40,802 nucleotides of DNA from Dehalococcoidia bacterium. Its GTDB lineage: Bacteria; Chloroflexota; Dehalococcoidia; Bin125. Where the stretch lies: positions 1-40,802 of the forward strand of contig JAJDZG010000116.1 of the NCBI GenBank assembly GCA_022824765.1, given 5' to 3'. Under the pieces are notes generated by a model. It had not been told where the DNA came from. It worked only from the letters and a program-made list of their open reading frames with translations, and did no database searches. Positions 20,347-23,458 of the stretch are shown here, in pieces; position 1 is the stretch's first letter, and each line of letters begins with the position of its first letter. A program made the translations under genes and the position numbers.

Positions 20347-22751
20347 TGGACGTCCCGCTGAAATGGCTGGCGCAATATGTGGATTGGGACCTGACCGTCG
20401 AAGAGCTGGCGCATCGGCTCAGCATGGCCGGCGCCGAAGTCGAGTCGATCAAGCGCAGCGGCGCTGAATGGAAACACGTCGTCGTGGGCCGCGTGCAAGC
20501 GGTCGAGCCGCACCCAAACGCCGACCGTCTGCGTCTCGCCACGGTCGAATACGGCGGCAGCGAACCGCTGCAGGTCGTCTGCGGCGCGCCCAATCTGGAG
20601 GCCGGCCAGACCATAGCCTTCGCCCAGGTCGGCGCCGCCCTGCTTGACCCGTCGACGCGAGAGCCGCGCAAACTGCGCAAAGGCAAGATTCGCGGCGTCA
20701 CGTCGATGGGCATGATCTGCTCCGAGCGCGAACTCGGCCTCTCGGACGACCACGAAGGCATTCTTGTGCTCGACACCGACGTTGCGCTGGGATCTCCGCT
20801 CTCCGACGTGCTGGGCGACGTCGTACTGGACATCAAGCCGACGCCGAACCGTCCTGACCACTTCTCCATCCTGGGCATCGCCCGCGAAGTCGCCGCGCTG
20901 ACCGACGGCGCGGTCCGCGAGCCGGTCGACAGCTATCCAGAGGCAGACTCATCCGCCAGCGATCGCACCAGCGTGCAGATCGACGACCCCGACGGCTGCC
21001 CGCGCTACACCGCAATCCTGATCGAGGGCGTCCGAGTCGGACCGTCGCCGCAGTGGATGCAAGATGCGCTGTCCTCGGCGGGCATGCGTCCGATCAATAA
21101 CATCGTCGACTCGACCAACTACGTCATGCTCGAGTGGGGTCAACCGCTGCACGCCTTCGACTTCGGCATCCTGCGGGAGAGCCGCATCGTGGTCCGCCGC
21201 GCCCGCGCGAGTGAGCAGCTGGCGCTACTCGACGGCTCGAACATCGAGCTGCAGCCCGACGACCTGGTCATCGCCGACGCCGAGCGCGCCGTCGCCCTGG
21301 CCGGCATCATGGGCGGTGCCGAGTCTGAGATTTCCGACGACACCACGACGATCCTGCTGGAAACTGCCAACTTCCAGGAAGCGTCCATCCGCCGTAGCCG
21401 CGCTCGTCACACGGAGACGGGCACCGAGGCCAGTCGCCGATTCGAGAAATCGCTCAATCCGGAGCTGTGCGAGCTGGCCGCCCGTCGCGCCGCCGCGCTG
21501 ATCATCGAGACCGCCGGCGGACAAGCGCTGAGCGGGATCGTGGACGCCTATCCAGGCAAGAGACATATTCCGCAGGTCGTCGTCGGACAGCCTCGCATCG
21601 AGCAGATCCTCGGTCTGCTGCCGTCGGTCGAGACGACACGCGGCATTCTCACTGCCTTGGGTATCTCCAACCGTTGGCTGCCGCCGAACCGATACTCGGT
21701 CAGCTGCCCGCCCTGGCGCTCGGACATCAACGTGCCGGACGACGTGGTCGAGGAGATTGGCCGCATCATCGGCTACGACAATCTTCCGTCGGAACCGTTG
21801 CCGGGCGCCGTGCCTGAGCACGATATCGATCCGGAGCGGACGCTCAGCGAGCACATCCGCGATGTGCTGAGCGGGCTGGGCCTGCGCGAGATCATCACCT
21901 ACGCAGCCGTCGGCGCCGACGAGCTCGACGCCGTCTCGCCCGACGGCGGCTCTCCATCGATCAAGCTGCAGAATCCGATGAACACCGAGCGCGACCGCAT
22001 GCGCACCAGCCTGCGACCGTGGGGTCTGCGCACCTTTGCGCTCAATCAGCGTGAGTCCCGGGGCGGCCTGGCGCTCTTCGAGGTGGGCAAGGTCTTCTTG
22101 CCAAACCCCGGCGGTCAAGCGACCGAACGGCGCATGTTGCTGGCTCTGATCGGCGGCGCTCTCACCCCGTCCATGCACGGCGGCGAGCTGCGACCGCTGG
22201 ACTTCTACGACGCCAAGGGCGTGCTCGAGCAACTGGGACACGGCATCGGCGCCGAGTTCGCAATCGCCCAGCACACCGACGATGCCGCACTGTCTCGTGG
22301 ACAGTCCGCTGCCCTGACCGTCGCCGGCCAATCCGTCGGCGTGATCGGACGCGTGCAGCCGGCCGTCGCGTCGCTGTTCAACGTTGAGGGTGACGTATTC
22401 GCCATCGAGATCTCGATCAGCGAGCTCGCGCCGCTGATCGATGGAGTGGTGACGGTCGCCTCACCCTCGGTCTATCCGGCGGCCGTCGAGGATTTGGCGC
22501 TGATCGTCGACGAGAGCCTGACCGCCGGCGAGCTGGAAGCGGCCATTCGCGGCAACGGCCTGGTCGAGCATGTCGAGCTGTTCGACGTGTACCGCGGCGA
22601 GCCGATCGCTGACGGCTCGAAGTCGCTCGCCTTCCGGGTGCACTACCGCTCGCCCGATCGGACGCTGTCAGAGCGGGATGTTGAGAAGGCGCGGCGCGGG
22701 ATCGTGCGACGCCTGGCCTCGCAGTTCGGCGCGGAACTGCGCGACTCCTAA
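20346..22751 (+). CDS. pheT: Phenylalanyl-tRNA synthetase beta subunit
   Basis: 801 aa, usual full length. It binds tRNA-Phe and hydrolyses Tyr-tRNA-Phe. The N-terminal core starts MDVPLKWLAQYVDWD. The tRNA-binding OB domain has VVGRVQAVEPHPNADRLRLA, followed by VVCGAPNLEAGQ. The B3/B4 editing domain has NRPDHFSILGIAREVAAL and GILRESRIVVRRA. The B5 domain has PSVETTRGILTALGI, then PPWRSDINVPDDVVEEIGRIIGYDN. The C-terminal FDX-ACB domain has YPAAVEDLALIVDE and LAFRVHYRSPDRTLSERDV. The open frame extends upstream into pheS, but the ATG in TGATG at 20346 is the family start. Confidence 0.97.
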   Translation: MDVPLKWLAQYVDWDLTVEELAHRLSMAGAEVESIKRSGAEWKHVVVGRVQAVEPHPNADRLRLATVEYGGSEPLQVVCGAPNLEAGQTIAFAQVGAALLDPSTREPRKLRKGKIRGVTSMGMICSERELGLSDDHEGILVLDTDVALGSPLSDVLGDVVLDIKPTPNRPDHFSILGIAREVAALTDGAVREPVDSYPEADSSASDRTSVQIDDPDGCPRYTAILIEGVRVGPSPQWMQDALSSAGMRPINNIVDSTNYVMLEWGQPLHAFDFGILRESRIVVRRARASEQLALLDGSNIELQPDDLVIADAERAVALAGIMGGAESEISDDTTTILLETANFQEASIRRSRARHTETGTEASRRFEKSLNPELCELAARRAAALIIETAGGQALSGIVDAYPGKRHIPQVVVGQPRIEQILGLLPSVETTRGILTALGISNRWLPPNRYSVSCPPWRSDINVPDDVVEEIGRIIGYDNLPSEPLPGAVPEHDIDPERTLSEHIRDVLSGLGLREIITYAAVGADELDAVSPDGGSPSIKLQNPMNTERDRMRTSLRPWGLRTFALNQRESRGGLALFEVGKVFLPNPGGQATERRMLLALIGGALTPSMHGGELRPLDFYDAKGVLEQLGHGIGAEFAIAQHTDDAALSRGQSAALTVAGQSVGVIGRVQPAVASLFNVEGDVFAIEISISELAPLIDGVVTVASPSVYPAAVEDLALIVDESLTAGELEAAIRGNGLVEHVELFDVYRGEPIADGSKSLAFRVHYRSPDRTLSERDVEKARRGIVRRLASQFGAELRDS

Positions 22752-22823: not shown

Positions 22824-22850
22824 TTGGCACTCTCGGCTGAAGAGTGCCAG
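22824..22850 (+). promoter_or_regulatory. CIRCE-like HrcA operator, copy 1
   Basis: TTGGCACTC, nine bases, GAGTGCCAG. The known CIRCE consensus is TTAGCACTC-N9-GAGTGCTAA, bound by the HrcA repressor that controls groE and dnaK operons. This copy has one mismatch on the left and two on the right, and the inner TGGCACTC/GAGTGCCA is a perfect 8-bp palindrome with the right N9 spacing. Confidence 0.85.
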
Positions 22851-22866
22851 AATGAATAGCAGCTGG

Positions 22867-22893
22867 TTAGCACTCTGCTCATCAGAGTGCCAG
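22867..22893 (+). promoter_or_regulatory. CIRCE-like HrcA operator, copy 2
   Basis: TTAGCACTC, nine bases, GAGTGCCAG. The left half matches the CIRCE consensus fully, the right half has two mismatches. Its centre is 43 bp from that of copy 1, about four helical turns, so two HrcA dimers could sit on the same face of DNA. The next start codon is 49 bases downstream. Confidence 0.88.
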
Positions 22894-22942
22894 AGGCCAG
22901 CCGAAGGCCCAACCAGAGGCCCGCGCACGAACGGAATCAGCC

Positions 22943-23458
22943 ATGACCTTCATCCACCCAAACCTCTCGGAACACTACGGCGCCCGCGCAGAACTGGCTG
23001 GCCTCGCAGACCGGATCAACAGCGCTGGCGACCATCTTGAGCTTGCGGCTGCGCTCGACGACGCGACCGCGCTCCCGCCAGTCGAACTGCGCCGAGTCAT
23101 GCGAACCCTGGCCCGTCGCGAAGGCGGCGCATCAATCCATACAGCTCACGAGCTCGCCGCCCGGCGACTGCGCGCCATGTTGCAGTTGGACGTCGAGGCG
23201 GCCCGCGTCATCGCACGAGCCTTCTCCGACGCCTTCGTCGACCTGCCCGACCGTTGGCAGGAGCGCAACCGCGAGATCGATCTGAGCGTGATCAAGAACG
23301 CTCTGCACGCTCGCGAGTTTCTGGCGTTGACCGAGATGCTCCCTCAGCTGAACCAGGCGGAGTCGGCCTCCTGGCTACAGGCGCGGCTGGACAGTGAACG
23401 AGCCGCGGACGCATCGCCGACGAGTGAGCCGACACAGGCGCTCATCGAGCGCATGTAG
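22943..23458 (+). CDS. Unrecognised 171-aa protein behind two CIRCE-like operators
   Basis: 171 aa, no family recognised. It has no signal peptide or membrane segment and no cysteine. It looks all-helical, with charged amphipathic stretches such as LRRVMRTLARREGG, HELAARRLRAMLQLDVEAARVIARAF and HAREFLALTEMLPQLNQAESASWLQARL. The upstream 120 bp hold the two HrcA-type sites, so it is probably repressed by HrcA and induced by heat or protein damage. It is not GroES, GroEL, GrpE, DnaJ, DnaK or an sHSP by motif. It stands alone: pheT ends 191 nt upstream and rplT faces it downstream. Codon use looks like its neighbours. ATG at 22943 has only a weak Shine-Dalgarno. Confidence 0.82.
   Translation: MTFIHPNLSEHYGARAELAGLADRINSAGDHLELAAALDDATALPPVELRRVMRTLARREGGASIHTAHELAARRLRAMLQLDVEAARVIARAFSDAFVDLPDRWQERNREIDLSVIKNALHAREFLALTEMLPQLNQAESASWLQARLDSERAADASPTSEPTQALIERM

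Follow-up and report, generated by a model that had tools for sequence, protein, structure and literature searches.

Why does a gene whose product resembles no known protein family lie behind two copies of an operator best known from chaperone genes? The classical targets of HrcA and its operator, CIRCE, are chaperone operons, and the class I heat-shock genes comprise groESL, the dnaK operon and hrcA. In Bacillus, GroE modulates the activity of HrcA. The window analysed here, a stretch of 40,802 nucleotides from a Dehalococcoidia bacterium, contains a gene for a protein of 171 amino acids preceded by two CIRCE-type sites, which had been taken to mark a new member of the HrcA regulon. We consider it probable (about 0.6) that the gene encodes an HrcA-repressed, heat-inducible protein working beside GroE; the evidence for the operator is strong, and the remainder of this reading is drawn from it.

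Operators and putative promoter of the 171-residue gene

The two sites were present where the original prediction had placed them (Table 1), in the gap between pheT, which stops at 22751 (+ strand; identity confirmed by Pfam), and the ATG of the 171-residue reading frame, beyond which the gene for ribosomal protein L20 (rplT) lies on the opposite strand. Each operator has a spacer of 9 bases, the two are 43 bp apart centre to centre, and their ends lie 92 (operator 1) and 49 (operator 2) bases from the ATG. The published CIRCE consensus is TTAGCACTC-N9-GAGTGCTAA (PMC8762339), from which operator 1 departs at three positions and operator 2 at two. A search with this consensus at up to three mismatches returned only these two sites within the window, and no match at the same threshold was obtained when the window was shuffled 100 times. 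The emphasis on a pair of well-spaced sites does not extend to the genus at large, since 13 of its 15 genomes have one site. The possibility that CIRCE acts as a hairpin in the mRNA was considered and set aside: the segment 22858-22945 folds at -30.9 kcal/mol, yet z reaches no more than -1.57, and an equally good fold arose in 14 of 200 shuffles.

Table 1. Coordinates of the operators, the gene and the putative promoter elements in the window
Feature	Position	Strand	Basis
CIRCE operator 1, TTGGCACTC-N9-GAGTGCCAG	22824..22850	+	pattern search, source genome and genus comparison
CIRCE operator 2, TTAGCACTC-N9-GAGTGCCAG	22867..22893	+	pattern search, genus comparison
Putative -35 element TTGGCA, inside left arm of operator 1	22824..22829	+	hexamer scores
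Putative -10 element CAGAAT, overlapping right arm of operator 1, 18-base spacer	22848..22853	+	hexamer scores
Gene for 171-aa all-helical protein, no family match, proposed HrcA-regulon member	22943..23458	+	

The position of the operator relative to the promoter may differ between this gene and the chaperonin genes. Most regions upstream of hrcA, groES and groEL carry a TACGAT- or CACAAT-like -10 element 13-14 bases before CIRCE, an arrangement that would place the operator over the start of transcription. Ahead of the 171-residue gene no comparable box is seen repeatedly, the upstream scores (out of 12) being 5-7 for 14 genus genomes and 9 for the remaining one. Instead, TTGGCA in the left arm and a CANNNT hexamer at the right arm, separated by 18 bases, reach 8-9 of 12 at site 1 of all 15, 8 in the three sites scored in family f2, and 6 in family f50. 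When the same hexamer test was applied to the other regulon genes, hrcA and groES scored 5-7 and groEL 6-9; because of the groEL scores, we put forward only as an inference that operator 1 overlaps the promoter of the 171-residue gene.

HrcA and CIRCE in the source genome and its relatives

HrcA is encoded in the source genome (PF01628, E 2.1e-34, 119.5 bits against a cut-off of 22.2), its gene adjoining a perfect CIRCE. A scan of the whole genome with the strict core GCACTC-N9-GAGTGC found five places, one each at hrcA, groES and groEL and two at the 171-residue gene, and the reversed control pattern found none. The hrcA, groES and groEL neighbours were confirmed by Pfam as HrcA, Cpn10 and Cpn60; two of their three sites fit the consensus perfectly, and the third departs from it at 2 positions. 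A degenerate 27-base pattern, allowed up to three mismatches, recovered the same five sites and two further places with three mismatches each, which we regard as chance level because the reversed control of this pattern returned 4 matches on one strand and 7 on the other. Proposed membership of the HrcA regulon is thus supported by an hrcA gene with a perfect CIRCE and by retention of the site in orthologues (see below), and by every sequence feature that could be tested the 171-residue gene belongs to it. One expectation failed: the right half of the operators at hrcA and groE was to be of the same CCAG type as at the 171-residue gene, but is GAGTGCTAA at hrcA and groES and GAGTGCTAG at groEL.

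The strict-core survey was extended to 20 genomes of the family of the source genome (f1; 76 places) and six genomes of f2 and f50 (22 places). Cores were assigned to hrcA, groES, groEL or the 171-residue gene by tblastn with source-genome proteins and relatives of the 171-residue protein, and 97 of the 98 were examined, a third site in G019 being left out. Across these 26 genomes, 95 of the 97 cores lay at hrcA, groES, groEL or the 171-residue gene. In the family, 56 of the 75 examined were beside hrcA, groES or groEL, 17 preceded the 171-residue gene and 2 were elsewhere; the 22 cores in f2 and f50 were distributed among hrcA (6), groES (6), groEL without groES (5) and the 171-residue gene (5). 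HrcA itself was found in all 16 further genomes tested beyond the source genome. Since the strict core misses variant operators, such as those before the 171-residue gene in G015 and G061, further variant CIRCE targets are possible. Most of the relatives (loci L093-L147 in the family, L154-L171 in f2 and f50) possess a CIRCE-led groES-groEL pair together with a second groEL that has a CIRCE of its own.

Conservation of the operator with the gene

The 171-residue protein was found in 16 of the 20 family genomes, namely all 15 of the genus, the source included, and G015 of another genus. A CIRCE with up to three mismatches lies upstream of the gene in each of the 16, 38-92 bases before the start codon. 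Thirteen of the 15 genus genomes have a single site at 38-40 bases; the double site is confined to the source genome and its sister G005 (82 and 39 bases), whose protein is 83% identical to that of the window. In G015 the gene is preceded by two variants of the operator, TTGGCACTC...GAGTGATAA and ...GAGTGATGA, at a distance of 82 bp from each other. CIRCE as such is kept with the gene in 16 of 16 family orthologues, in five of five strong relatives in f2 and f50 and in the broken copy of G184, and the doublet in 2 of the 15 genus genomes. The dN/dS ratio, computed for 7 of the 105 genus pairs, was 0.04-0.23, indicating purifying selection on the protein. A scan of genome contigs, which reached close relatives, gave one locus, in the Dehalococcoidia metagenome-assembled genome contig JAJEBU010000126.1.

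In an alignment of the 15 genus sequences anchored at the first site, only the last base of the arms changed, and the spacers varied. The bases following the site, A, A, T, T and G, were held in 13, 13, 15, 13 and 12 of the 15 genomes, and in the upstream flank the commonest base was held in only 5-8 of the 15 at 26 of 30 positions. In its left arm (TTGG) and following bases (CCAGAAT), operator 1 is like the lone site of the other genus members. On these grounds we lean towards operator 1 as the older of the two. Operator 2 in its TTAGCACTC form is common only to the source genome and G005. Distance speaks the other way: operator 1 is farther from the ATG than the single site of the relatives (92 against 38-40 bases), and the 49 bases of operator 2 are nearer to it, which favours operator 2.

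Four members of the family (G016-G019; 79-92% complete) have no detectable orthologue of the gene and keep HrcA and CIRCE at their groE and hrcA genes. The 171-residue gene therefore seems dispensable for a CIRCE regulon.

A wider search was made among 393 genomes of the class. A first profile matched in 23 of these and a broader one in 37, of which 21 were strong matches (E < 1e-40) and 16 weaker. Five strong matches fell outside f1, four in f2 and one in f50, and these proteins share 25-27% identity with that of the window over the aligned part. All five genes have a CIRCE 69-88 bases upstream, perfect in G214, G309 and G374 and with one mismatch in G087; in that of G061, TTAGCAGTC/GACTGCTAA, a change in one arm is matched by one in the other. 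A sixth copy, in G184 of f2, is broken and is preceded by a one-mismatch CIRCE; this genome, which also holds a weak paralogue, was counted among the 16 weaker ones. At this locus (G184:C4; L046 and L188) both the gene and its PAC2-family neighbour are in pieces in different frames, through assembly error or decay.

The weaker matches served as a control. Apart from the broken copy in G184 there were 17, of which the one in G379 was dropped as an unlikely relative, and none of the 16 remaining paralogue loci has a CIRCE upstream at up to five mismatches; at L087 just 204 bases upstream were available, and at L081 a five-mismatch match lies downstream of the gene. Because these paralogues have no upstream site, CIRCE appears tied to one branch of the family. 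The window protein has a CIRCE and is without the tryptophan-rich tail of the paralogues, and so does not belong to the CIRCE-less group. The paralogues (L079-L087, L190-L195, L197) share the same helical core and mostly end in a tryptophan-rich C-terminus, such as PWWKFW, a tail that has the look of a docking motif. Among 400 genomes sampled from the phylum, not broken down by class, five matched, all in Dehalococcoidia, and the family appears, so far as seen, to be confined to that class.

These comparisons bear on whether the sites could be chance palindromes or relics that do not serve the gene. Strict cores do occur by themselves, in G006:C7 (L108) and G014:C21 (L133), with neither TTA flanks nor any regulon gene within the 3 kb examined, and are probably due to chance there; the reversed control pattern also gave up to three matches in some relatives. 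Against such an origin stand the absence of matches in the 100 shuffled windows and of strict-core control matches in the source genome, the constancy of the arms beside varying spacers in 15 genomes, and the retention of the site with the gene in three families. We consider chance or relic sites highly improbable.

The surroundings of the gene change while CIRCE stays, which argues that the operator goes with the gene and not with the neighbourhood. The window context is pheT, the gene and rplT, and pheT likewise adjoins the gene in G015; in f50 the contig terminates just past it. In f2 the gene next after the CIRCE-led one matches the PAC2 family (PF09754) in all five carriers; for the four with intact copies Pfam confirms this with E values no higher than 7e-36. 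The PAC2 gene is on the same strand at each of these loci (L040, L041, L042, L043 and, in pieces, L046), and the arrangement suggests a CIRCE-controlled operon of the gene and PAC2 in f2. In G061 (L042, 1966-2472), a same-strand reading frame past these two genes matches the FKBP-type prolyl isomerases (PF00254, E 3.1e-25), another folding-related gene. In the source genome, unlike f2, neither of the two PAC2 genes adjoins the 171-residue gene or has a CIRCE. We make no claim of a link to the proteasome through PAC2: PF00227 has no match in the source genome (91.6% complete) and matches in four of nine genomes tested, three of them over the cut-off and the genus relative G010 included.

In f1 the gene adjoins translation genes, which could hint at a different role. 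The gene might be controlled by HrcA and yet encode no folding factor, the product being a translation or ribosome stress protein or a protease adaptor that gains by sharing the signal. The position of the window gene between pheT and the L20 gene would suit this, as would the HrcA targets outside the chaperones in Chlamydiae (PMC4989314, PMC8762339). However, the translation neighbourhood is not preserved in f2, where a PAC2-family gene comes next, and the other strict cores in the f1, f2 and f50 genomes surveyed are, with two exceptions, at hrcA and groE. We judge a role outside folding unlikely, if by no means negligible.

The product and its likely place beside GroE

The protein has a computed mass of 19.0 kDa, a pI of 5.5 and no cysteine. 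Two AlphaFold2 models (pLDDT 79.0 and 82.7; pTM 0.71 and 0.73) contain helices only, eight of them plus one of four residues, so the expected cysteine-free and all-helical product is borne out by the reading frame and by the predicted fold. Its placement outside the known heat-shock families also stood: no significant match was obtained in Pfam, NCBIfam or the PDB. For the window protein Pfam gave no family at E <= 1, and over the 16 family members the best row was a sub-threshold 0.011 (Ovate); the best values were 0.013 among 26 rows in NCBIfam and 0.34 in a PDB sequence search, and a PADLOC scan gave sub-threshold matches only. A Foldseek search of the PDB with both models, which are of moderate confidence, returned no match at E <= 0.001. 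CSN4 was the top row both times and was rejected as a fold relative, an E of 0.11 and a TM score of about 0.3 not being meaningful. None of the Pfam, NCBIfam and PDB comparisons yielded a significant sequence or fold match to a chaperone, cochaperone or adaptor, and a search of an open library of papers found no publication on this gene or on a CIRCE regulon in Dehalococcoidia. With CIRCE upstream and no family match, the product may be an undescribed heat-shock protein.

In three families CIRCE is kept with this gene and its strict sites otherwise keep company with hrcA and groE; a role beside the chaperonin is therefore the most likely one. During normal growth HrcA would occupy site 1, over the likely promoter, and block transcription; in the source species it would also occupy site 2, which lies some four turns of the helix further on. 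On heating or under unfolded-protein stress HrcA activity would be lost and the gene derepressed jointly with hrcA, groES-groEL and the second groEL. The product would then be a small, soluble, helical protein in GroE-linked proteostasis, holding or delivering clients for the chaperonin. Binding and repression by HrcA, the response to heat, the promoter overlap and the biochemical role are all deduced from the DNA. A more specific version, in which these proteins form a new heat-shock family of all-helical GroE partners, holdases or client adaptors, within the HrcA regulon and accompanied by PAC2 in one branch, is offered tentatively. Should the protein prove to be a partner of the chaperonin, one of the most thoroughly studied folding machines would gain a component.

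A product under the same control as hrcA and groE could instead tune the regulator: it would be a small helical protein that partners HrcA or GroEL and acts in feedback on the activity of HrcA. There is a parallel in Myxococcus, where MXAN_4468 binds HrcA and strengthens its binding to CIRCE (PMC9040617); but MXAN_4468 belongs to the response regulators, whose domain Pfam did not find in the window protein, and G016-G019 have CIRCE-led hrcA or groE genes without the protein. This alternative is improbable, well behind a role outside folding.

The locus of the window, which we read as encoding a probable co-worker of GroE, resembles the known HrcA/CIRCE regulon in its consensus-type operators (two to three mismatches), in the presence of HrcA and in the CIRCE before hrcA, groES and groEL, and differs from it in that the product of the gene is neither a known chaperone nor significantly matched by any family. 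Chlamydiae, too, are reported to have HrcA targets beyond the classical chaperones: the phoH promoter of Waddlia is among those shifted by HrcA, beside wcw_1080 and others (PMC4989314), and 13 further candidate target genes are given for C. trachomatis (PMC8762339). Since HrcA has such accessory targets, roles other than that beside the chaperonin are possible for the 171-residue protein. The chlamydial targets differ in having the looser motif TAGCA-N15-TGCTAA, and those of Waddlia are for the most part confined to this one species; in Dehalococcoidia, a full CIRCE accompanies a single gene across three families. In Myxococcus, CIRCE lies over the start site in one of the groEL1 and groEL2 promoters and over the -35 region in the other (PMC9040617), placements which parallel those proposed here for hrcA and groE on the one hand and the 171-residue gene on the other. 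The difference from Myxococcus is that the -35-overlapping type, proposed here from sequence, would precede a gene of an uncharacterised family.
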